From IMG/VR virus record IMGVR_UViG_3300046538_000290, positions 1 through 37,318 of that record: a stretch of DNA of 37,318 nt, one strand, 5' to 3'. Origin of the DNA: a virus. The notes beneath the pieces are model-generated. The model worked only from the letters and a program-made list of their open reading frames with translations, made no database searches and was not told where the DNA came from. Positions within the stretch are counted from its first letter, which is position 1, and each line of letters begins with the position of its first letter. Shown one piece after another: positions 8,745 through 37,014 of the stretch. A program made the translations under genes and the position numbers.

Positions 8745-9092
8745 ATGCTCATAGCGGATCGAGTGGGTGAACGCCTCAGGGAAGAGCGCGAGCGCTTGGG
8801 GTTAAATCAAACTGATTTTGGTGTGCTTCTTGGGGTCAGTCGGGGCACGCAGAAAAATTACGAATTAGGAGCAAGCTCTCTCGACCTGCGATACGTGACG
8901 GCGCTTGAAGAACGCGGTGTTGATGCGGCATACGTGCTCACCGGCAGGCGATCGACTCCATTGGGTCAACTTTTTAGCGCTTCGGAAGAAGAGTTGATAA
9001 ACCAGTTCAGAATCATCTCCGATGATGATCAAAAAGCGATTCGCCGCTTCCTTGAAGCCATGGCAGACGATGCGGCCCGCCATAGGTCTTAA
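8745..9092 (+). CDS. XRE-family prophage repressor (short, no peptidase domain)
   Basis: 115-residue protein with an N-terminal XRE helix-turn-helix (RVGERLREERERLGLNQTDFGVLLGVSRGTQKNYELG, about residues 5-42) and a short C-terminal helical part. There is no S24 peptidase domain, so RecA-stimulated self-cleavage is not expected, as in P2 C; induction would need another signal or an antirepressor. The ATG at 8745 is chosen because GGTGGTGA lies upstream, whereas the ATGs at 8715 and 8727 have no ribosome-binding site and fall in the operator region. It is divergent from the Cro-like gene and should keep the prophage silent. Confidence 0.85.
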   Translation: MLIADRVGERLREERERLGLNQTDFGVLLGVSRGTQKNYELGASSLDLRYVTALEERGVDAAYVLTGRRSTPLGQLFSASEEELINQFRIISDDDQKAIRRFLEAMADDAARHRS

Positions 9093-9193
9093 CTTGCAAC
9101 AAAGCACATGACTCATTAGTCGCATTTCCGTTTCAAACCTGTTTGCCGCCCCGATAACGTCGATTCAGCAATGCACGTTATGGAGTAGTAAGC

Positions 9194-9379
9194 ATGTTGG
9201 ATCGCAAGAAGAACGATCACACCTCGTTTGATACCACTGAGTTCGACACAACCGAGCTCACCAATATTGAGCGTCGTCTGATCGATCTGTACCGCCGGCT
9301 AAGTCATGTGGAGAAGCAACAAGTCCGCCGTGTGGTCGAGATACTGGCAATCAACCCAAAAGAGCCGGTAAGGAGCTGA
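9194..9379 (+). CDS. Small hypothetical protein beside the repressor
   Basis: 61-residue, strongly charged protein (MLDRKKNDHTSF...) with a repeated FDTTE motif near the N-terminus and a helical C-terminal half (LIDLYRRLSHVEKQQVRRVVEIL). GGAG lies seven bases before the ATG. It follows the repressor by 101 bases on the same strand, so it may be expressed in the lysogen. The helical part resembles the end of some phage repressors, suggesting a repressor-associated role, but no function is known to me. Confidence 0.6.
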   Translation: MLDRKKNDHTSFDTTEFDTTELTNIERRLIDLYRRLSHVEKQQVRRVVEILAINPKEPVRS

Positions 9380-9434
9380 CCCCCCATTTTTGAATGATTC
9401 CGATCGCCGATGCTCCCGTGTTGGCGGTCTGACT

Positions 9435-9692
9435 CTACGCCACGGCCTGCGATCCCAACTGTTCGAACAGCTCCCGCTGTTTAGCCCTGGGCATGTCGCG
9501 CAGACGGTCGAACAGCATCCTTTCAAATGACTGCGCCGACGGGCTCAGCGTGTGTGAAAACGTCAGGTTTGCCACCCATGTGTGCCCGCACTTTGCGTCC
9601 AGGCACTGGCAGTACAGCTTCACAAAATCCATGGTCACTTCTTCCCGCGAAGCGATGCGGCCTTTGTGTCCGCATTTGCATACAACTCTCAT
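9435..9692 (-). CDS. ogr: Ogr/Delta-type zinc-finger late activator
   Basis: 85-residue protein of the Ogr/Delta family, which in P2 and P4 binds upstream of late promoters and recruits RNA polymerase. The zinc-binding part is MRVVCKCGHKG...LYCQCLDAKCGHTW with five cysteines in the first third, followed by a conserved LSPSAQSFERMLFDRLRDMPRAKQRELFEQLG tail. GGGAGGG stands six bases before the ATG at 9692; the longer reading frame upstream does not match the family. It lies alone between the repressor block and the portal gene, leftward. It most likely turns on the head, tail and lysis operons. Confidence 0.85.
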   Translation of the reverse strand: MRVVCKCGHKGRIASREEVTMDFVKLYCQCLDAKCGHTWVANLTFSHTLSPSAQSFERMLFDRLRDMPRAKQRELFEQLGSQAVA

Positions 9693-9720
9693 TGTGTCCC
9701 TCCCCAGGGGCAGCTGATCG

Positions 9721-9747
9721 CCACCATATTGCCACAATATGTAGTGG
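9721..9747. promoter_or_regulatory. Dyad upstream of ogr
   Basis: CATATTG-CCA-CAATATG (9725-9741) is a perfect inverted repeat with outer CCAC/GTGG arms. It lies 29 bases upstream of the ogr ATG and just after the portal stop. There is no T-run, so an operator for ogr expression is more likely than a terminator. Confidence 0.45.
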
Positions 9748-9767
9748 CATTCTCTCTGTTGGGTTCT

Positions 9768-10796
9768 TCATGTAGTGGTATCCACTGCCTCTGGCTCTGC
9801 TCGCCAGCTAAATCGCCTATCCTCTCTGAGCGTGTCATTCAGCTGGTTGAACAGCTGGCAGATCGGCCGGATTTCGTTGCTGGTGTACACCCTATCGATC
9901 TTCTCGATGTCGCCGAAGCCGCCGGTATTTTCCGGGATGATGCCGGCCAGCGCCGGGTTCATTCGCCAGGCGGCGATGACGTCGTTTCGCGTGATGTTTT
10001 TCACCTTCTCCAGTTCGTCCTTGGCCTGGAAGTCACCCACCGGAATGATCTGAATCGCGTTCTCCTTGCCGTTGGGGATGTTGACGAACATCGAGCGGAA
10101 GTTGCCCACACCCTTGCTGGCACTGATCTGTGCGCGCAGCTCGTCCTCGTCTTCTTCGGTCAGGTCGGGGTCGTTGGTGTAGAAAATGTATCCCGCGTGC
10201 GCGCCATTGCTGTAGTAGCGGCGGCGGAACAGGGTCGCGGCTTCGTTGAGCAGCAGCGCCTGCAGGCCGCCCAGGTAGTCCGGTACGCCGTAGATATTCT
10301 GTTCCACGTCGTAGTCCAGGACGTGTTCGATCTCGTTCTCTTCAAACTCCATTTCCTTATTGTCGGGCAGCAGCATCACAAACCCGCCACCCACCTTGAC
10401 CCGCATGTTGATCGCCGGCAGGTGCTGCAGCTCCAGCACCTGGCCAAAAGCATTTCTATGGCGAAGCAGATACGCCTCGCCGAACACCATGTAGTCCAGG
10501 CCGGCTCGTCCCATGGTCTGCGTGCTGCAGCCGAGGGAGGCGATGAACTCACGCAGCAACAGGTTGCGCTTGAACTTCGGAATAGCGCCGTGGTGCGCGT
10601 TGGCGCGCAGCAGCTTGGCCAGGCCAACCCGGGACACCGGCGGCTTGTAGATTTTGCCGTCGTCGCTGGGAAACACCCCCACGTACTCGCCGATGTTGCC
10701 TGACAGCACCTGCTCGGGCTCCCCGAACGTAAAGCTGCGCATGGGCTGCTGCGGTTGTTGAACTGCGGGTGGTTTTTTGTGTTTGCGGTTGGCCAT
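9768..10796 (-). CDS. Q: Portal protein (P2 gpQ / PBSX family)
   Basis: 342-residue phage portal protein, the dodecameric ring at the capsid vertex through which DNA enters. Recognisable segments are MRSFTFGEPEQVLSGN at the N-terminus, FGEAYLLRHRNAFGQVLELQHLPA, VPDYLGGLQALLLNEAATLFRRRYYSNGAHAGYIFY in the middle and NDVIAAWRMNPALAGIIPENTGGFGDIEKIDRVY near the end. Size is normal for P2 Q. It lies leftward immediately downstream of the terminase gene, the conserved Q-P order. No clear Shine-Dalgarno is seen, and its start lies within the reading frame of the upstream terminase gene, suggesting coupling. Confidence 0.93.
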   Translation of the reverse strand: MANRKHKKPPAVQQPQQPMRSFTFGEPEQVLSGNIGEYVGVFPSDDGKIYKPPVSRVGLAKLLRANAHHGAIPKFKRNLLLREFIASLGCSTQTMGRAGLDYMVFGEAYLLRHRNAFGQVLELQHLPAINMRVKVGGGFVMLLPDNKEMEFEENEIEHVLDYDVEQNIYGVPDYLGGLQALLLNEAATLFRRRYYSNGAHAGYIFYTNDPDLTEEDEDELRAQISASKGVGNFRSMFVNIPNGKENAIQIIPVGDFQAKDELEKVKNITRNDVIAAWRMNPALAGIIPENTGGFGDIEKIDRVYTSNEIRPICQLFNQLNDTLREDRRFSWRAEPEAVDTTT

Positions 10797-12591
10797 GGCT
10801 GCTGTGGTTACTCGTGACGTAGCGGCTGCGGCGCCGCTTGTTGGTGTTCAAAGGTTCGTTGGACAGAGCGTGCATCACCGCCCAGGCGATGTCGGCGTGA
10901 CCGGTGGCCTCAGTGCGCGAAGCGCTGTAGGTAATCTGGCCGCTGTTGGTCGATCCGCGCTTAATGGTCAGGAAGGCCTGGGCGATGTCGGTCCAGCCGG
11001 CATCCCACTCGATGCGGCTGCCTTGGATCGTGTCCTGGGCCTTGAGTACCAGGGCGTTTTTCGCTTCAAGGCTGTAGTGAATCGGCGTCGCCTTGGCGTA
11101 GAAGTCGCGCACCAGGTCGAACACGCCGTAGCCCACGCCGGTGACGTCGATGCCGATATGCTGGACGTTGAAGCGCTCGGTCAGCTTCTTGACCTGGGCG
11201 GCTTGGTAGGTGAACGAGTGGCCCCGCCAGCTGTGCTTCTCCAGGATCCGGAACTTCGCCCCAGGTTCGAGCGGCGGGGCGATGACCACGCAGGTGGCGT
11301 CGTCGCGGGTACGGCTCGGGTCATAGCCCAGCCAGACCGGGCTGTTGCCGAACGGGCGCTCCAGATCCGGGTTGTAGTCCTCCCACAACGACAGATCCGA
11401 GTAGCAGCGCTCAAGATCCTTGAGACTGAAAGCGCTTTGGGTGCTGTCGATGAACTTGCAGTAAAACAACTGCTGAAACTTGTCCTCGTCGTACTCCAGC
11501 TGCAGCTGCTCGAGGTCGAACAGATCGCAGCCGCCAGCGATCGCGTCGTCCAGGGTGATCGTCTTGCGCCACTGGCCGTCCGGGCACAACGCACCCTGCG
11601 TATAGGCCGACTCGCTGGGCCAGATGCCGCCGGCCTTCTTGCCGCGCTTGCTGTTGCGGAACTCTTCGCCCGACCAGAACGGGTACGCCTGGTGCGACAC
11701 CGCGCTGGGCGTCGAGAAATAGGTTTTACGCCATTTCTTGTGCGTGCCCATGGCGCTGGCCACGGTGCTCAATTTTTCGAAATCGCGGATCCAGAAATAT
11801 TCGTCCACGTAGACATGCCCGTGATAGCCCTGGGCGGTGCTGCTGTTGGTGCTGAGAAAGCGCAGTTCGGCGCCGTTGCTGAGGGTGATGGGGTTGCCGG
11901 TCAGCTCGATGCCGAACCACTGTTGGGCAAACTGGATGATGTAGCTGCGGAAGATCTCGGACTGCGATCGGCTGGCGGACAGGAACACCTGGTTGTCACC
12001 GCTCAGCACGGCGTCCATGAACGCTTCGCCGGCGAAGTAGTAGGTCAGACCGACCTGCCGGCTTTTGAGGATGTTGCGGACTCGGCGCGTCAGCGGGTTC
12101 TGTTTCGCCTCGAACAGCTCTTTCTGGTAGCCGTACATCTTGGAGATGAACTTATCCAGGAAGTCCACTTCGGTCAGGCCGCTGATGTCGTTCTTGGTCT
12201 TCTTTTCGCGCTTCTTTCCGCCACCATCGCCCCGATCACGGCGCTGGCCTGAGGGGCGCTCCCGGGGCGCGTCCGGACTGTCGGACGACGCTGCCGGCGC
12301 AGGCTTGGCCGACTGCTTAATCAGGCGTTCACGCAGGGTGGTCAGGCGCTCCAGTTCGTCGAGTTCGCCCTTTGATAGCGTGTCGACTTTCTCCAGGATC
12401 AGGGTGATCCGCCGGCTGATGGCGGTCAGCGGTTCCTCGTCCGTCAGCATCTCGTCCCAGCATCCTTGGCGGATCCAGTAGTAGACGATTCGGATATTGG
12501 GCAGCTTCAAATGCGCCTGGATTTCCTTCACCGAACAACGGCGCAGGTAGAGGCGTTTTGCGGCTTCTTTGACTTCGGTTGGGTAGTTCAT
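10549..12591 (-). CDS. P: Terminase large (ATPase) subunit, P2 gpP-like, with overlapping tail
   Basis: 680-residue terminase ATPase/nuclease that cuts and pumps phage DNA into proheads. It has an N-terminal helix-turn-helix (CSVKEIQAHLKLPNIRIVYYWI), an ATPase motor with KSRQVGLTYYFAGEAF and SASRSQSEIF, a Walker B-like GHVYVDEYFWI and a nuclease domain with WLGYDPSRTRDD and HIGIDVTGVGYG. The start at 12591 fits the family N-terminus MNYPTEVKEAAKRLY. Homologues end near 590-600 residues, close to the NEPL motif at about 10850. Here the frame stays open another 83 codons inside the portal gene, giving a low-complexity tail. This is either a lost stop or a small frameshift; the core enzyme looks intact. 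Confidence 0.88.
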   Translation of the reverse strand: MNYPTEVKEAAKRLYLRRCSVKEIQAHLKLPNIRIVYYWIRQGCWDEMLTDEEPLTAISRRITLILEKVDTLSKGELDELERLTTLRERLIKQSAKPAPAASSDSPDAPRERPSGQRRDRGDGGGKKREKKTKNDISGLTEVDFLDKFISKMYGYQKELFEAKQNPLTRRVRNILKSRQVGLTYYFAGEAFMDAVLSGDNQVFLSASRSQSEIFRSYIIQFAQQWFGIELTGNPITLSNGAELRFLSTNSSTAQGYHGHVYVDEYFWIRDFEKLSTVASAMGTHKKWRKTYFSTPSAVSHQAYPFWSGEEFRNSKRGKKAGGIWPSESAYTQGALCPDGQWRKTITLDDAIAGGCDLFDLEQLQLEYDEDKFQQLFYCKFIDSTQSAFSLKDLERCYSDLSLWEDYNPDLERPFGNSPVWLGYDPSRTRDDATCVVIAPPLEPGAKFRILEKHSWRGHSFTYQAAQVKKLTERFNVQHIGIDVTGVGYGVFDLVRDFYAKATPIHYSLEAKNALVLKAQDTIQGSRIEWDAGWTDIAQAFLTIKRGSTNSGQITYSASRTEATGHADIAWAVMHALSNEPLNTNKRRRSRYVTSNHSSHGQPQTQKTTRSSTTAAAHAQLYVRGARAGAVRQHRRVRGGVSQRRRQNLQAAGVPGWPGQAAARQRAPRRYSEVQAQPVAA

Positions 12592-28520: not shown

Positions 28521-29221
28521 AGCTGCATAAGATTCTGGCAATCAATGGCGCGCCGATCGCCCTGGTGAAAGACGACGTTCGGCTGGACGCCACCAGTCCC
28601 GGTCGGGCGACGTTCACCATCCAATCCGCGGTGCCGGTGAAAGGCCTGGTGACGCTGGACATCGGCTACAACGAAGGCCCCCTGCAACGGCACTTCATTG
28701 GCTACGTCGAGCGCTGCACCGCCGCCAACGCCGTCGAGCAGGTGCTGTTCTGTCGCGAGCTGGCCGCCGTCCTGGCCAACCCGCTGCCGCTGAACCTGCG
28801 CCATGTCGATTTGCGCGCCGTGTTGGCTGAGGTCAGTGAACAGACCGGCCTGCGCTTTCGCGTGCCCGATCGGCCCTACGCTAGCGTTAAGGCGCCGTTC
28901 TTTTACAGCCTGGCCGCCGGCTATCAGGCGATGGACAGTCTGGCCCGGGTATTCAGCATTCCCGACTTCACCTGGCAGCAGCAGGGCAACGGGGAAGTAT
29001 TCGTAGGCAGCTGGGCCGACAGTTTTTTCGGCGCCCGTGCGCCGCTTCAGATCCCCACGGAGCTGTTCGACGGCTACCAGGGCAACCAGAGCGCGATGGT
29101 CGCGGCCCTTCCCGGGTTGCGACCAGGTGCAACGATCAACCAAGGCGAGCGAGTCACCAGCGTGGCGCTCGCCAATGACCAGATGGCTATCCGATGGAAG
29201 ACGCAATCCGCCGCAGCGTAG
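28517..29221 (+). CDS. D: Late control protein D-like (baseplate hub)
   Basis: 234-residue protein of the gpD / late control D group, part of the baseplate hub on which the spike sits. Marks are the ALVKDDVRLDATSPGRATFTIQS start, LDIGYNEGPLQRHFIGYVERC and LPLNLRHVDLRAVLAEVSEQTGLRFRVPD, the DUF2126-like hub segment with the ALAGYQAMDSLARVFSIPDFTWQQQGNGEVFVG region. It is shorter than P2 gpD (387 residues) because hub and spike functions are shared with the next gene. It overlaps that gene by 28 bases. Confidence 0.83.
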   Translation: MKLHKILAINGAPIALVKDDVRLDATSPGRATFTIQSAVPVKGLVTLDIGYNEGPLQRHFIGYVERCTAANAVEQVLFCRELAAVLANPLPLNLRHVDLRAVLAEVSEQTGLRFRVPDRPYASVKAPFFYSLAAGYQAMDSLARVFSIPDFTWQQQGNGEVFVGSWADSFFGARAPLQIPTELFDGYQGNQSAMVAALPGLRPGATINQGERVTSVALANDQMAIRWKTQSAAA

Positions 29222-30171
29222 AGCGGCAATTTCCCGAACTCACCGGCGGCTACCACCTGCCGCGCTTTGCCCGGGTTATCGCCGTGGCCGATGCCCCGGC
29301 CGGCGCCGGGATCTGCGACGACTTCCGGCCGCGCTATGCGGTGGACATCGAAGTCCTCGGCCCGGACGGCGAGCCCGATCCGCAGCTGCCCCAGCTTGCC
29401 GGCGTGCCGTTGCCGCTGCCCACCGGTGGCGAGGAAATGGGCATCTACGCCTTTCCGGAGGAGGGCACCCAAGTGGTGGTGTGTTTCGCCTACGGCCTGC
29501 CGAACAAGCCCTACATCCAGACGATCCTGCCTCACGGCCTGAGCATGCCCAAGGTGCCGAAGGGCGATCAGGTGTGGCAGCACAGCGAAGCCGCCCAGCA
29601 GCGCGTCGACGCCGACGGTAACTGGCTGCGTCAGACCGATGGCAAGATCCAGGACAAGGCGATCGAACGTGAAGTGGAGGCCCTGGACAACCGCGAGCAG
29701 TTCCAGAACCACACGCAGACGATTAACGATCATTCGACCGAAACGGTGGGAGGCGTAAAGACAATCGAAGCCCTAGGCGCGCTGAAGCTGCTGTCGGGGG
29801 GATCCGTGAGTTTGGCGGCGGTGGATGATCTGCACCAGGCGACGGGCCGGGATCTGAACCTGGTAGTGGGGCAGAAGCATAACGCTGCAGTAGGTGGTGA
29901 CATGCAGGAGAAGATCCAGGGCGTGCGTAAAAGCGTCGCGGGGATCGGTCAGCGGCTGCAATCCCCCAAGACGTGGTTAGGTTCTGAGAAAGTGAATGTG
30001 TTGCAAGTGTTATGTGACGTGATCGCCCTGCTCGAGCAAATGAATACCCAACTAGTGGCACACACCCACGTACCAGGACCCATGCCGAGCCCAACCGATG
30101 CATCGGCATTCACAGTAGAGGCCGAAAAAGCTGCATTGTTATGGTCAGAATTGAAGGCGATCACGCTTTAG
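29194..30171 (+). CDS. V: Baseplate spike/assembly protein V-like
   Basis: 325-residue protein with an OB-fold-like domain (RVIAVADAPAGAGICDDFRPRYAVDIEVLGPDGEPDPQLPQLAGVPLPLPTGGEEMGIYAFPEEGTQVVVCFAYGLPNKPYIQTILPHGL) typical of the Gp5/V spike, then a repetitive beta-helix part (ETVGGVKTIEALGALKLLSGGSVSLAAVDDLHQATGRDLNLVVGQ) and the end VAHTHVPGPMPSPTDA with an HTH motif. It should form the membrane-piercing tip. It is the last gene of the late operon and converges with the RloB-like gene 14 bases away. Its start within gpD is by frame; no separate ribosome-binding site is seen. Confidence 0.87.
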   Translation: MEDAIRRSVERQFPELTGGYHLPRFARVIAVADAPAGAGICDDFRPRYAVDIEVLGPDGEPDPQLPQLAGVPLPLPTGGEEMGIYAFPEEGTQVVVCFAYGLPNKPYIQTILPHGLSMPKVPKGDQVWQHSEAAQQRVDADGNWLRQTDGKIQDKAIEREVEALDNREQFQNHTQTINDHSTETVGGVKTIEALGALKLLSGGSVSLAAVDDLHQATGRDLNLVVGQKHNAAVGGDMQEKIQGVRKSVAGIGQRLQSPKTWLGSEKVNVLQVLCDVIALLEQMNTQLVAHTHVPGPMPSPTDASAFTVEAEKAALLWSELKAITL

Positions 30172-30185
30172 ATGTTTGTCAAAGT

Positions 30186-30845
30186 CTAAAGCTGTTCAGA
30201 CCATTTTTTGCCGTTTTGTACGATTTTTACTACCAATTCACCGACATTGGTTGATGGGCATCCCAGCGGGCAATTCTCAGCTTCTCTAGCGGAGTTCAAT
30301 GCTCGAGACCTATCAAGGGCTTCGGGAAACATATCCTTAATCATTTCAAAATCAATTATTGCCCTACTCTCATGATCATATTCAGGCATTTCCGTGTTAA
30401 GTCTTTTTTGTATGGCGTGTCGGCCATCTTGATTGCCATAATTCACTAGGTGGAGGAGCGGCCATAGTTCAAAGCAGGGGTTGGAGAATCCAACATCAAT
30501 GCCGCTTCCCAAAGCCTCATTTATAGCGCTCTCTATATTGTGGTGTTCATCACGATCAAAGACAGCCCAAACCCGAAAGCAGTGGTCGAAACTGTTTTTT
30601 GATTTTTTTCGTTTGGCGGTAAGCTCTTCTCTAAGTTGCTTAGCTTTTTGAACTATAGTGGTTGGCGCACCTGCGCCCGGTACAGTAAGGATTTTAACTA
30701 GCCCATTACCATAATAAAGAGCGCAGCTGTCGAAGTAGGCTGGCTCAGTATTGCTACCTTCACATACGATATGAATTTCAACTTTTGGGTCTACAGTGCT
30801 CGTGGACCGTTTAAGAGTCGGCGTAGCCGGCATTCTCCTAGCCAT
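30186..30845 (-). CDS. RloB family protein (AbiLii-like)
   Basis: 219-residue RloB-like protein. The N-terminal IHIVCEGSNTEPAYFDS and the internal RVWAVFDRDEHHN are the family marks; Glu29 with Asp97/Asp99 gives a TOPRIM-like acidic pattern, which suggests nuclease activity. A later conserved part has SNPCFELWPLLHLVNYGNQDGR. It lies two bases downstream of an ATPase of the ABC type, the pair seen in AbiL (AbiLi ATPase with AbiLii RloB). Base composition is visibly more AT-rich than the phage body and the gene runs against the late operon, so it is a moron of separate origin. The function in defence is by homology. Confidence 0.82.
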   Translation of the reverse strand: MARRMPATPTLKRSTSTVDPKVEIHIVCEGSNTEPAYFDSCALYYGNGLVKILTVPGAGAPTTIVQKAKQLREELTAKRKKSKNSFDHCFRVWAVFDRDEHHNIESAINEALGSGIDVGFSNPCFELWPLLHLVNYGNQDGRHAIQKRLNTEMPEYDHESRAIIDFEMIKDMFPEALDRSRALNSAREAENCPLGCPSTNVGELVVKIVQNGKKWSEQL

Positions 30846-30847
30846 GT

Positions 30848-32209
30848 TTACTCCTCGTGATCACCGGAGATCATGCCGATTTTTTTATAATCACTCTCGC
30901 TCATTCCGAACATAGGGACGGCGCCAAATCTACCGTCTATATAACCTTTTTCAAAGTTATCGTTGCTTCGACTTTTTATCGAGCTAAGCGAATATAAACT
31001 TGTGCAGCCAGTTTTGTCCTTCTCGACAAACCATACTTGATCTCTACGTAGCAGTCCTGTTGTTAGCATGCTGGTATCATGAGTGGTAAAAATCAACTGC
31101 GCATGACCGGGGTTTGTATCAGGGCGAGAAAAAAGACTAATAAGCTCTTTCGTTACCAGTGGATGAAGAGCGATGTTTAGTTCGTCTACTATTAACATGC
31201 CACCATTTCTAAGCTTGTCGAAGACGGGCCCCAACAATTGTAGAAGAGCTTTAGTTCCGGAGCTCTCGCTTTCCAGTTTTATTGGATAGTTTTTGCCATC
31301 TTTTCCAGTGTGAAATATTTTGGCTTCAGTTTTTTCTAGGAATTCATCAAACTTTATATCGGTTGAGGCATGCTTTGAAATAAACTGCTCAAACTCTTGA
31401 ATCATGAGCTTCGTTTTTTCAGTAGTCGGCTTTTTGGAAAATTGAATGTCGGCAATGCCAATGTCTGCCGCTCGCATGAAACTAGTGGCCATCTTCCTTT
31501 GTTGTTCATCGATGTTGAAGTAAGCATGCATCTGCTTGCTTAAAAGTGCGCTGTCGTCTATAGAGTCCAGTCTTTTTGAAACTCCAGAGGAAAAGTACTC
31601 GTAAATTAATGATAGGTGAGGGTGAGAGTTTTGCGCCGCTGCGGAAATGAAAAGGCTATTGTCTCGAACAAATTTAGAAATTGCTTTGTTGTCGCCTTTT
31701 AGGTTTTTCCCAAAATAGAAAACCTCTTTCTCGGTCGCATCTCTGTGAAATAGAACGCTACGAGATTGACGCTGTGTACCTATGGGGAAAGAATACAGCC
31801 ATTCGCTATTTATTATCTCTCCGTCCAGAGTGAATCCATAGTGATAACGAGTGCCATCTAATACAAAGTCAGCATCATATCGGGAGGGTGTGTGTCGAGA
31901 TTCATCATCTAAAAGAAATGGTTTATATGGTGTTCCGTGTCTCGTCGACTTCGCATTATGAGAATCTCTAATGGCCGCGACAAAGAACTCTAAGGCTCTT
32001 AGTACCGTAGATTTACCGGCGGCATTTGCGCCGTATACTGCGACTACAGGAACCGCAACTATATTTTTTTTTGTGCTGTCAATCGAGTCAGGGCTTTCGC
32101 CGACCTGAAGGAGTCCTTCTGTGGCGTCTTTGAGCGACGTTGCCATAAGGGACAGCTCTTGGTAATCACGTATGGATAGGTGATTAGCAGTGCCAAATCT
32201 AAGGAGCAT
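30848..32209 (-). CDS. ABC/SMC-type AAA ATPase (AbiLi-like)
   Basis: 453-residue ATPase with Walker A GANAAGKST (60-68), a signature-like SSGTK (316-320), Walker B LIVDE (339-343) and the H-loop TTHD (375-378), the set of ABC-type AAA_15/21 ATPases found in anti-phage systems. The N-terminus MLLRFGTANHLSIRDYQELS is usual for the group. It is the first gene of a two-gene unit with RloB; GAGG stands seven bases before the ATG. In such systems the ATPase senses infection and unleashes its toxic partner. Likely an AbiL-type system, with PARIS or other OLD-like pairs as alternatives, but the RloB partner argues for AbiL. AT-rich like its partner. Confidence 0.85.
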   Translation of the reverse strand: MLLRFGTANHLSIRDYQELSLMATSLKDATEGLLQVGESPDSIDSTKKNIVAVPVVAVYGANAAGKSTVLRALEFFVAAIRDSHNAKSTRHGTPYKPFLLDDESRHTPSRYDADFVLDGTRYHYGFTLDGEIINSEWLYSFPIGTQRQSRSVLFHRDATEKEVFYFGKNLKGDNKAISKFVRDNSLFISAAAQNSHPHLSLIYEYFSSGVSKRLDSIDDSALLSKQMHAYFNIDEQQRKMATSFMRAADIGIADIQFSKKPTTEKTKLMIQEFEQFISKHASTDIKFDEFLEKTEAKIFHTGKDGKNYPIKLESESSGTKALLQLLGPVFDKLRNGGMLIVDELNIALHPLVTKELISLFSRPDTNPGHAQLIFTTHDTSMLTTGLLRRDQVWFVEKDKTGCTSLYSLSSIKSRSNDNFEKGYIDGRFGAVPMFGMSESDYKKIGMISGDHEE

Positions 32210-32513
32210 CTTGATACCTCTAAAACGCTTTTTAGGCGTATTTTTGCAAATTCTTAGCTTAGGAGACTACCTAGCGTCGATGCAGGGTGCAACAAGAGAT
32301 TCGTTTGCCCAGACGACGAGTAGGAGCTAGCTGGACTGATCAATCCTATACTCCGCGCTGACGGATTCAGTATGTGCGTAGGGACGAACCCAAGGCTGCC
32401 CCTGCTGCCCACGTTGTCTCTTACCTAGATTCATATGTAGGCCTGCGTGAGCGCTGGGGGATCTACCAAAGCAAAGGTTCTAGACGGGAGATAGATGCTC
32501 ATCACTCCTTGAG
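32210..32513. other. Promoter region of the ATPase-RloB pair and gap to HEPN gene
   Basis: About 300 bases without a gene. Near the ATPase start an inverted repeat CTAAAACGCTTTTTAG (32220-32235) lies in an AT-rich stretch, which may be an operator or attenuator for the pair. The rest shows no ORF or structure that I can support. Confidence 0.4.
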
Positions 32514-33122
32514 CTATTTTCCTATCAGCTGACGCATGGTGCGTTGCGATAGGGAGTCGATCTCCCGGAGCGCATGAGACGTCTGCTCCGAGACAGTCAT
32601 AAGCATGATCATGGTGAACACGGACAGGAAAAGCGCTAGTTTAGGATTCTGATCAAGCGTGTCAGCCAGTACATCCTGTTTCATCCCTCGCTCCTGCCAA
32701 GCGATTGCTTTCTTCCAAGCCCTGCGCTGTTCCTTGTCCAACCCCTCGAAATATTTCTTTAGATCAAAGTCAATATTTTCGAGTCTGTGGACGAGATTGT
32801 TGCGTAGTTCCGAGAACTTTCGCAGGAATGAAAATTGACTGCTGGTGATCAGGTTCAATTCGACAGCGACTCGCCCTTTTCCAGTCTGATTATCAGAAAG
32901 GGGTAGACGCTCGATTACTGAACGGAGCACACCTTGATTGGTGTGCGCCAGGATCACCTCGGTAACCGTGGCCTCTATGGCGGCATGGAGCTTGATCACC
33001 ATCGCCCAATCAGTGTCGTGCAGGAAGTCCAGAAGCTTGTCAGACGCCTCGAACAACGCCTTATTCAATCCTTGCCGCATTTCTTCTGTGAGGCTCTCAG
33101 CCTCGTCGCGATATAGGTACAT
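32514..33122 (-). CDS. HEPN-like protein with C-terminal hydrophobic segment
   Basis: 202-residue protein that matches no named gene that I know. The centre has FLRKFSELRNNLVHRLENIDFDL; RNNLVH (107-112) fits the Rx4-6H motif of HEPN RNases, and the surrounding helices are as in other HEPN proteins (ELRNxxVHxxxNV). A short hydrophobic stretch lies at about 162-177 (LALFLSVFTMIMLMTV), possibly a membrane anchor. HEPN domains act in abortive infection, toxin-antitoxin and CRISPR systems. It stands alone between the AbiL-like pair and a DUF3800 gene, with no cognate antitoxin visible. Start at 33122; AGAGG is upstream at a poor distance. Confidence 0.7.
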   Translation of the reverse strand: MYLYRDEAESLTEEMRQGLNKALFEASDKLLDFLHDTDWAMVIKLHAAIEATVTEVILAHTNQGVLRSVIERLPLSDNQTGKGRVAVELNLITSSQFSFLRKFSELRNNLVHRLENIDFDLKKYFEGLDKEQRRAWKKAIAWQERGMKQDVLADTLDQNPKLALFLSVFTMIMLMTVSEQTSHALREIDSLSQRTMRQLIGK

Positions 33123-33683
33123 GAAATTCCTCTTAAGTTATATGCATGCAACCAGACAGGAGCTGCTGCGTCTAGGCTCCTGCTTGTAAGAAAAAACCAG
33201 CTGAAAAAAAAATGGCTAAAAAAGCACTTATCCCCCTCCCGCCGACGGGCTTTATGTCACTTTTTTGTGCAAAGGCGGGTGGGGGTGCAAATCATGGCCA
33301 CGCTCAAGCCCACTGCGGGGCTGTGAGACATTTTGCAATTACACGGAGTGCAAGGTTTTGCAAAGAAGTGCAGAGGCTTTGCGTAGCGCCCAAAGCAAGC
33401 CAGGTCGGTGGCCGATCTCTAGAGACCCCAGTTTGCAAGGAGACGTCGTTTGAAAATAAGCGTCTTTTCAAGTTTTTGATTTCTCAATAGCTCGCACCAG
33501 GGGAGCTTTGGATGTGTTTCAGAAAGGATACCAACTTGCCTCAAAGCCCCGGCGCTGTGGGCTTTCAGGTCGTTTAGCGCATTTCACAGGTGACCAGCGG
33601 TGATATGGCTACTTCTGAGTTACGAGAGGCAGGACTCCGCGCCTACAAAACCTGGGGCGACTCAAGGCTCAGATGGTAATAAA
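33123..33683. other. 560-base gap with TGCA repeats, upstream of the HEPN gene
   Basis: No convincing gene. TGCA motifs recur (33334, 33349, 33359, 33369), the last three exactly 10 bases apart, with more TGCAAA at 33267 and 33284. A short ORF of 24 codons (33605-33679, MATSELREAGLRAYKTWGD...) may be a gene fragment. A hairpin CCCGCCGACGGG near 33238-33250 is weak. Confidence 0.4.
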
Positions 33684-34811
33684 TCACACGTTAAAAAGTG
33701 CTGATGAATCTAGCCCGTCGATATTTTCTTCGTCTAATTTTAGGTCTAACATTTGCGCAACTAGCTCAGCCATATCATCTTTAAAGTTGCGCTCGCCTTC
33801 GTGGTTTAAAATTCGCCCGATAGCCCCGGCAATCACGTCTGACAATTGAACTAATTGACTATTTTTTGATGATGCAGTTTGCAGTGACCTTAATTGTAGG
33901 GTGTCATCAAACTGCCCTTTATAGTTAATACTTATACGCTCGCGAAGATCGGCTATCACGAAGGAATCTAGAGACTGTTCTTCATCGACGGTGACGTCCA
34001 TTTCCCGTGGTAAATCCATTCGCCCACTTTTTACTTCATGAGTAGCGCCCCGAATCAGCATATGCTCATGAAGCTTTAAAATAGTTTCTTCAATTGATCG
34101 GTTTGTTTTTGCCCGCTCTACTGCAATAACCTTAAACCCTAAATACTCCCTATTTTCAAGAATGACTGCGAGATACCCTTTCAATGTTTCATAATCGCTT
34201 TTTCCGAATTTGGAAAAATGAACTTCCCGATTCTTCCATACGGACTGCGCTTGCCATTCGCTGATAGCTTTGCTAATGGTAAATACCGCTCTACCGCTCA
34301 GGACCCACACTGAGGCGACGATTACAAAGCGATGAGTTTTGCCCGTTTCATCGGAGAAGATATGAACGGTCTTACGCGGAGCACTATCTTCAAGGACAGC
34401 TCCCTCCATTTTCTCTTCATTTTTTCTGCGACTTTTTTTGATTTCTGAGTCAGCCAAAAACAAGCCGTATTCATTTTGAATCTTCGCCCTGGCCCGAACG
34501 ATATAATGCAACCTCTCTAACCTAAATAAGTCTTTGGGTAGTATTCCTGCATCATTGTAAATCTCGCGCTGAAATATTTCCCAATATTTCAGGGATAAAG
34601 AGATGTCGCTATTGCGTGTGTGCGGGTAAAGATTTAAAACGGATGCCACTCTTGGTTTCAGTGTTGAAAAATCTGCTGCCGCTAGAGATGATAGTAATTC
34701 TTTTTTTTCTTTATCTATCTTTTCATCTTTGGTTAATTGTTTTTTTATAGTTTTTTGTGAGTTCTCTTCTGGTGGAAGAGGTACTGAGTCTTCGATCGTG
34801 TAAACGCCCAT
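33684..34811 (-). CDS. DUF3800 domain protein
   Basis: 375-residue protein with a Lys/Glu-rich N-terminal part (about 20-45, then helices) and a C-terminal DUF3800 domain that starts at HIFSDETGKTHRFVIVASVWVLSG (149-172). Asp154/Glu155 and the late acidic motif LVQLSDVIAGAIGR (Asp325) resemble an RNase H-like acidic set in DUF3800. Such proteins occur in phages and defence-rich islands, with unknown substrate. It is AT-rich and leftward, like the AbiL-like pair. The N-terminal 145 residues have no recognised domain and may be the target-specific part. A GGAG site (AAGGAGTG) lies eight bases before the ATG. Confidence 0.75.
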   Translation of the reverse strand: MGVYTIEDSVPLPPEENSQKTIKKQLTKDEKIDKEKKELLSSLAAADFSTLKPRVASVLNLYPHTRNSDISLSLKYWEIFQREIYNDAGILPKDLFRLERLHYIVRARAKIQNEYGLFLADSEIKKSRRKNEEKMEGAVLEDSAPRKTVHIFSDETGKTHRFVIVASVWVLSGRAVFTISKAISEWQAQSVWKNREVHFSKFGKSDYETLKGYLAVILENREYLGFKVIAVERAKTNRSIEETILKLHEHMLIRGATHEVKSGRMDLPREMDVTVDEEQSLDSFVIADLRERISINYKGQFDDTLQLRSLQTASSKNSQLVQLSDVIAGAIGRILNHEGERNFKDDMAELVAQMLDLKLDEENIDGLDSSALFNV

Positions 34812-36283: not shown

Positions 36284-36400
36284 CAGATAGTGACAATGTC
36301 ATTCTGTTTATGGCATCACGGCCAATGTCGGAGATTTCCCGCAACCCGCGTCGCCATCGCCCACCTTGCACTCCTCCAACCACCCAGATAACCTTCTCCC
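36284..36400. other. Host DNA beyond the right core, no gene identified
   Basis: An open frame runs on the plus strand through this part and ends in ISDKGVEALHKI at a stop at 36448-36450, just before a terminator. It may be the 3' end of a gene cut off at the insertion; I cannot name it. Confidence 0.3.
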
Positions 36401-36489
36401 GTCGCTGCAAAATCAGCGACAAGGGTGTGGAAGCCCTTCACAAGATCTAGGCGCACAAGCGCCACCTAAATTTCAGCGGGCGCTTTTTT
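36401..36489 (+). terminator. Hairpin array ending in a rho-independent terminator
   Basis: GTCGCTG/CAGCGAC (36401-36420), AAGGG/CCCTT (36421-36438) and AGCGCC/GGCGCT (36458-36484) followed by six T's. GGCGC/GCGCC (36450-36463) competes with the terminator stem. It ends upstream transcription before the C4-type RNA; the array could also be the 3' part of a small RNA. Confidence 0.6.
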
Positions 36490-36509
36490 CTCGTCTGCTG
36501 TTAAATTAT

Positions 36510-36585
36510 GGCGGCTGTGCGCGGGGCACTTTCGGGTGCGCCGGGTTCCTAGATCCCCGGTCTTCCACACCTGCGTACAGCTGCC
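36510..36585 (+). ncRNA. C4-type antisense RNA
   Basis: A 13-bp outer stem (36510-36522 with 36573-36585, two G-U pairs) closes a junction with hairpins GCAC/GTGC and CCGGG/CCCGG. Two single-stranded segments match downstream targets: GTTCCTAGA (36545-36553) is complementary to TCTAGGAAC at 36628-36636, which contains the ribosome-binding site of the next gene, and CTTCCACA (36562-36569) is complementary to TGTGGAAG at 36594-36601. This two-site antisense design is that of the phage P1 C4 RNA family. Confidence 0.78.
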
Positions 36586-36642
36586 ACCCATCATGTGGAA
36601 GTGATGCTGGCAGTTCCTTAATTTAATTCTAGGAACAAAGCA

Positions 36643-37014
36643 ATGAAGAAAATCACTCCAAATCCCCCCGAAACCTCAACCGTTTCCGACCCTCTCGATG
36701 AGCTCTCCAAAGCCACTCAACGCACTGTCAGCAAACGCCTTCGTAACCCAAACCACGCCGACCCGATCAGCCACGTTTTCACCATCCTCCCCAACGTCGA
36801 TACAGAATCCCTGTTAAGCCACGCCTGCGAAACCCTCGCGTCCCTAAACGTCCTAACCACCGACCTGGCCTGCGAACTCGAAGGTTCACACCGCAGTCTC
36901 GCGCTATCGATTCAGCAATTAGCAGTAGTCGGTGAGTTATTGGTAAACCGAGCCCTGGATAATCTTGACCCGCCCGACGGTGAGTCCGAGATTCCATCCG
37001 CCAGCCAAGCCTAA
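36643..37014 (+). CDS. DUF6124 family protein
   Basis: 123-residue protein of DUF6124, a family almost restricted to Pseudomonas and often in several copies per genome. Typical parts are KKITPNPPETSTVSDPLDELSKA at the start, FTILPNVDTESLLSHACETLASLNVLTTDLACELEGSHRSLALSIQQLAVVGELLVNRALD at the end, a helical pair. AGGAAC, six bases before the ATG, is the target of the C4-type RNA and can also pair in cis with GTTCCT at 36613-36618, so translation is probably off until the leader is opened. Function unknown. It is a host gene. Confidence 0.88.
   Translation: MKKITPNPPETSTVSDPLDELSKATQRTVSKRLRNPNHADPISHVFTILPNVDTESLLSHACETLASLNVLTTDLACELEGSHRSLALSIQQLAVVGELLVNRALDNLDPPDGESEIPSASQA

Follow-up and report, generated by a model that had tools for sequence, protein, structure and literature searches.

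The question raised by this locus is whether a single phage gene, which an earlier note had read as coding for an RNase of the HEPN kind, encodes such an enzyme, and whether that enzyme would serve in abortive infection. The window, by which we mean the whole stretch of DNA analysed, is a virus record of 37,318 bases in IMG/VR (IMGVR_UViG_3300046538_000290), and judged by its relatives and its tail genes the phage is most likely a prophage of Pseudomonas. The open reading frame begins with ATG, spans 202 codons and lies exactly where the earlier note had placed it. The gene and its parts are as follows.

32514..33122, minus strand: gene for the HEPN-family protein, ATG start, 202 aa (open reading frame, dN/dS, AlphaFold2 model with pLDDT 94, HEPN structural matches)
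33128..33133, minus strand: putative ribosome-binding site AGAGGA, likely from its sequence and its usual spacing before the start of the HEPN gene
32991..33011, minus strand: codons of the signature D38-W39-x-x-x-I43-K44 at the start of helix 2, invariant, in part because the collecting patterns built this in
32973..32975, minus strand: codon of E50, the conserved acidic residue in helix 38–61 (Glu in 48 of 49 sequences, Asp in one; HEPN description in PMC3710099)
32787..32804, minus strand: codons of the Rx4H motif R107-N-N-L-V-H112 at the end of helix 94–111 (R107, N108 and H112 invariant in 49 of 49)
32589..32639, minus strand: codons 162–178, a hydrophobic stretch within bundle helix 160–200 (hydropathy compared across 45 members)

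The reading frame is a genuine gene, as judged by the likely ribosome-binding site, by relatives in about 45 loci and by purifying selection, since comparison with the nearest relative, L002, whose protein is 82% identical, gave a dN of 0.111 against a dS of 1.182 (ratio 0.094). Two close relatives, with 82% and 62% identity, were found in a scan of viral contigs, plasmid relatives occur in Pseudomonas aeruginosa (44%) and Pseudoalteromonas (25%), and 43 loci came from 84,980 genomes searched with the first alignment. Loci of the family are found in Pseudomonadota, Bacteroidota, Nitrospirota, Verrucomicrobiota, cyanobacteria and others. The family is nevertheless rare. At the thresholds used it was absent from all 298 sampled Pseudomonas genomes and from all 298 sampled genomes of the phylum, in each case besides the centre genome itself, and no homologue was present among 50,697 cultured-phage records. 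No Pfam, NCBIfam, PHROGs or PADLOC model matches the window protein at threshold, and current annotation misses the family because no model in these collections covers it. The family is new, uncatalogued and unnamed, whereas the HEPN kind itself is already known.

Arg 107, Asn 108 and His 112 are invariant in all 49 relatives compared, and in all 46 sequences of alignment A2, so that the two residues on which the RNase reading of the earlier note depended, Arg 107 and His 112, are kept throughout. The patterns with which relatives were collected covered D38 to K44 and the helix with E50 and left out the RN..H motif; for this reason the invariance of the motif is independent of the collection, whereas that of D38, W39, I43, K44 and E50 is partly built in. 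Lys 82 varies in one sequence.

The AlphaFold2 model of the window protein, built with 46 relatives, has a pLDDT of 94 and consists of ten helices. Within it the RNNLVH motif proposed earlier is found as R107-NNLV-H112, in an all-helical context as had been claimed, and is followed by ENIDF at residues 115–119, in agreement with the NI(D/S)F pattern. When the model was compared with the PDB by VIA-align, the best matches were MtlR (3brj, Z 11.0), YggD (3c8g, 10.6), MtlR-HPr (10.3) and HepS (9oij, 10.1 over 151 residues with 17% identity), followed by HepT (7bxo, 7.5), a HEPN protein (7.0) and Csm6 (6.5), and then by unrelated helical proteins. Helical bundles are unambiguous on Z alone only at about 13, and all of these HEPN matches fall below that value. 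Because a Z near 11 is not decisive on its own for a helical bundle, a second family member was modelled, a relative from an Acidovorax prophage that is 22% identical (pLDDT 95.6). Its first 14 matches were all HEPN structures, with Z from 11.5 to 8.3 (MtlR 11.5, YggD 11.4, HepS 8.9 over 144–146 residues), and the next, unrelated one reached 5.8. The fold assigned by the earlier note is borne out in that HEPN structures are the best matches of both models.

The sequence comparisons point the same way at lower strength. A profile search of PDB sequences matched HepT/HEPN toxins only, with E from 0.006 to 0.39 and R-N..H aligned, and the same search with single proteins gave no relevant match. 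Among the sub-threshold Pfam matches of family members HEPN families lead. HHalign against a small HepT alignment placed the HEPN motif in register (probability 5.5%, E 0.007, reversed control 0.2), and against a small MtlR alignment it gave a probability of 2.6% (E 0.018, reversed control 0.55), each too weak to count alone. Catalytic HEPN domains carry Rx4-6H at the end of helix 3 and an acidic residue in helix 2 (PMC3710099). The predicted window protein has these features, with Rx4H at the end of helix 3 (helix 94–111), a polar residue (N108) after the Arg, and an acid in helix 2, E50, within helix 38–61. By prediction, it is established that the window protein has the HEPN fold and an intact RNase site.

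One claim did not survive. A hydrophobic run, ALFLSVFTMIMLMTV, does begin at residue 163, close to where the earlier note had seen it (about residue 162), and was taken there for a possible membrane anchor. The Kyte-Doolittle mean of the aligned segment is 1.41 in the window protein, with a family median of 1.13 and values of at least 1.6 in only 3 of 45 members, and a charged residue or histidine lies within the segment in all 45. Hydropathy across the relatives and these polar residues speak against an anchor. The run is part of helix 160–200 in the model, where it more plausibly forms the side of a bundle helix that is turned to the core.

Given the structural ranking, a catalytically silent regulator of the MtlR type must be weighed, in which the HEPN fold would bind RNA or a partner protein and act on the expression of phage or host genes but not cleave RNA. 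For both models MtlR and YggD head the structural ranking (Z 11.0 and 10.6; 11.5 and 11.4), and 3 of 46 family members match the MtlR Pfam model PF05068 weakly (best E 0.075, gathering threshold 25.2 bits), the window protein giving no match. MtlR, however, keeps the active site in about 60% of cases (PMC3710099), against 49 of 49 for R, N and H in the present family, and the Vibrionaceae copies of MtlR that were compared read R-D-x-L-N, with no His at that position. MtlR genes also lie in mannitol operons, whereas the present family has no fixed neighbour; no mannitol genes were found among its recurrent neighbours, and the gene in the window lies in a phage cargo slot. We consider a silent regulator improbable.

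The surroundings of the gene were compared between the window and related phages. The bordering features and the other cargo of the slot are given below.

29194..30171, plus strand: phage baseplate gene V-like, the other border of the slot, convergent with the cargo genes (Pfam Phage_base_V; beside cargo in L002, L003, L060, L061 and L062)
30186..30845, minus strand: AbiLii / RloB-like gene, in the slot (Pfam RloB, 5.7e-35; PADLOC AbiLii, 3.8e-25)
30848..32209, minus strand: AbiLi AAA ATPase gene, in the slot (PADLOC AbiLi, 2.1e-88)
33204..33388, no strand assigned: conserved non-coding element forming the hotspot border on the upstream side of the HEPN gene, also present in sister phages without that gene

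The HEPN gene lies between the baseplate V-like reading frame and the conserved element, and runs against the direction of the late tail genes. The same gene occupies the slot in L002, together with a GmrSD/Schlafen-like protein and without AbiL there, and in L003, where no gene separates it from the tail gene. In the sister phages the slot is filled by an Mrr-type endonuclease and a second protein (L060), by a DUF4145 HEPN protein resembling PD-T7-4 and a second protein (L061), or by an Apea-like HEPN protein (L062). At least three HEPN families share one slot, because these sister phages carry there the family described here, DUF4145-HEPN and Apea-HEPN. The hotspot as a whole (30171–33388 in the window), between the baseplate V-like gene and the element of about 185 bases, is seen to hold AbiL, GmrSD, Mrr, DUF4145-HEPN and Apea-HEPN. 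L062 also carries a GmrSD with DUF5655 (9045–11156) beyond the conserved element, and this second defence gene suggests a second cargo slot there.

As claimed earlier, the HEPN gene is flanked by putative defence genes: AbiLi and AbiLii called by PADLOC on one side, and on the other a DUF3800 gene, which lies 560 bp away and beyond the conserved phage element. The DUF3800 protein (33684–34811, 375 aa) sits in a low-GC insertion and has a weak match to the candidate defence family PDC-M04A (E 1e-10). Elsewhere, a homologue in an Acidovorax prophage directly follows the tail baseplate-hub gene gpD, another shares one contig (L054) with portal and prohead protease genes, and on a P. aeruginosa plasmid the neighbour is a RiboL-PSP HEPN protein. 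Upstream of the homologue on P. aeruginosa plasmids there is also a 1446-aa protein with no Pfam match (L004, 1391–5731). Around chromosomal homologues the neighbours are mixed: many are ordinary metabolic genes, and the few that match defence models (HerA, PDC families) are for the most part singletons. For this reason no tie to defence islands holds across the family.

An upstream non-coding RNA is known for AbiF, and the block upstream of the HEPN gene, which is conserved between the window and L002 above the level of the gene itself, was considered in the same light. It gave no Rfam match, its RNA fold is no better than that of shuffles (z −1.1), and four sister phages have the block but not the HEPN gene. 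An RNA specific to the HEPN gene is ruled out by these results, and because the element is present in phages lacking the gene it is taken as the border of the hotspot. It contains repeated TTGCA/TGCAA words and is common to at least five related phages. A similar stretch lies at the very end of the record of Pseudomonas phage UFJF_PfPro (bases 1–140), and for this reason an attachment or end site may lie close to the element. Two further features lie towards the right end of the window. A C4 antisense RNA (36388–36591, 80.6 bits), overlapped by an isrK-like match, has an a1/b1 target stretch just upstream, and the two together indicate, at the level of sequence, an immunity switch of the P1/P7 C4 type in this phage. 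A DUF6124 protein is encoded at 36643–37014 (E 1.4e-27), probably by a host or lysogenic-conversion gene.

The earlier statement that the gene lacks an antitoxin holds for the family: because no gene recurs next to it in 50 loci, there is no conserved antitoxin or other recurrent partner. The gene could still encode a toxin of the addiction type whose antitoxin, a small, RNA or antisense one, has escaped notice. HepT, a toxin of such a system, is among the structural matches, antisense reading frames exist over the HEPN gene, and the prophage protein Tha is checked by the overlapping antisense protein Ith (PMC11087260). No antisense frame over the gene is free of stops in the window or in L002, however, which rules out an inhibitor like Ith, and the better-conserved antisense frame is 74% identical between the two, less than the 82% of the HEPN protein. 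The upstream element also speaks against an RNA antitoxin, as it occurs without the gene and the fold of the upstream RNA stands at z −1.1. With no recurrent neighbour in the 50 loci as well, a toxin-antitoxin pair seems unlikely.

A role in the biology of the phage itself, such as maintenance of lysogeny or control of late genes or host RNA, would agree with carriage in prophages beside structural genes and with the mixed neighbours outside phages. Set against this, sister phages fill the same slot with recognised defence genes, and the HEPN gene is accessory because most related phages lack it, and we give such a role a small probability. Least probable is that the protein belongs as a third part to the AbiL system beside it. 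Its gene does lie 304 bp upstream of AbiLi and on the strand of AbiLi, but this reading is contradicted by L002, with HEPN and GmrSD-like genes and no AbiL there, and by L003, with nothing between HEPN and the tail gene, and AbiL does not recur beside the family in the 50 loci.

We therefore favour, with a probability of roughly 0.7 and partly by analogy, a stand-alone, prophage-encoded HEPN endoribonuclease that would act as a phage-triggered abortive-infection effector like HepS or Tha, because of the two AlphaFold2 models, the conservation of R107, N108 and H112 (49 of 49) and of E50 (48 of 49), the lack of a recurrent neighbour and the defence slot. Of what the earlier note had put together, the HEPN fold, the conserved Rx4H, the lack of a conserved antitoxin and the defence setting remain, and the membrane anchor does not. 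Lysogenic cells would produce the protein from a promoter of its own gene, which runs opposite to the late tail operon, and it would be inactive at rest. It would be triggered by some part of an infecting phage; by analogy with HepS and Tha, a tail or baseplate protein is plausible. Once switched on, a dimer would cleave cellular RNA (tRNA or rRNA) by means of R107 and H112, independently of metal, and growth would halt before the rival phage is made. Dimerisation, RNase activity, resting inactivity, trigger, growth arrest and defence, and with them abortive infection itself, are what we infer for this protein.

More tentatively, and on balance doubtfully, sensor and killer might be one protein, in which the invariant start of the helix at D38-W39/K44 and the helices packed on the HEPN core keep R107 and H112 closed, to be released by binding of a conserved tail or baseplate protein from a contractile-tailed competitor. 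The family would in that case belong to a broad tail-sensing class that reaches beyond HepS and Tha, from Pseudomonas to Bacteroidota, Nitrospirota and cyanobacteria. If tail sensing is true, a general rule would follow that prophage HEPN proteins guard against the virion proteins of competitors, and a single gene with two point mutants would be enough to test it directly in a Gram-negative laboratory host. The locus is of interest mainly because it offers an uncomplicated case in which to test whether prophage HEPN proteins give immunity in Gram-negative bacteria. It adds a predicted family of intact, stand-alone HEPN nucleases to the prophage-borne ones, and it singles out one Pseudomonas phage slot whose occupants alternate between restriction genes, Abi genes and HEPN proteins of at least three unrelated families.

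Among known systems, MtlR/YggD (PF05068) is the best match in fold (Z 10–11.5) and differs in that its catalytic His is frequently absent and in its mannitol operon context, which is absent from the present family. HepT of the MntA-HepT type VII toxin-antitoxin systems shares the HEPN fold and an LRN..VH motif (profile match to 5yep, E 0.006), but the HepT models stay below cut-off in the window protein (PF01934, 14.2 against 23.5 bits; NF047751, 15.2 against 60 bits), and no nucleotidyltransferase antitoxin of the MntA type adjoins the gene in the window or recurs in the 50 loci. AbiV, Apea, DUF4145 and RiboL-PSP proteins are likewise of the HEPN superfamily and travel as defence cargo of phages or plasmids, Apea and DUF4145 in the same slot of sister phages, but they are separate families, and the structural match to AbiV is weak (Z 4.6). 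As to AbiL, PADLOC calls AbiLi and AbiLii for the neighbours only and nothing for the HEPN protein.

Tha of Staphylococcus aureus prophages is switched on by tail proteins and degrades RNA (PMC11087260). Like the window protein it is a prophage-encoded HEPN effector from a single gene, with RNSIMH in place of RNNLVH, but at 301 aa Tha is longer by an N-terminal region and is held in check by an antisense inhibitor, and the window protein has 202 aa, no such region and no stop-free antisense frame over its gene. Against the family profile 25–29 residues around the Tha motif align, with the HEPN motifs in register, an alignment that is not significant. The window protein is assigned to none of MtlR, HepT, Tha and AbiL, because for each of them it lacks a defining feature that was tested.

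HepS of the Salmonella prophage Gifsy-1 (9oij, 9oik) is, according to the title of PDB entry 9oik, bound to the lambda J tail tip. Its chain was not among the matches of the family profile search of PDB sequences, and the record of Gifsy-1 from LT2 has no HEPN gene annotated. A predicted HEPN gene, STM14_3211, lies in the Gifsy-1 of strain 14028s, and its deletion had no effect on an RNA-repair reporter (PMC9879122); this gene is perhaps HepS. Gifsy-1 is lambdoid, whereas the baseplate of the window phage is of the contractile-tail type, but both proteins are prophage-encoded HEPN proteins of about 200 aa, and they share a fold (Z 10.1).
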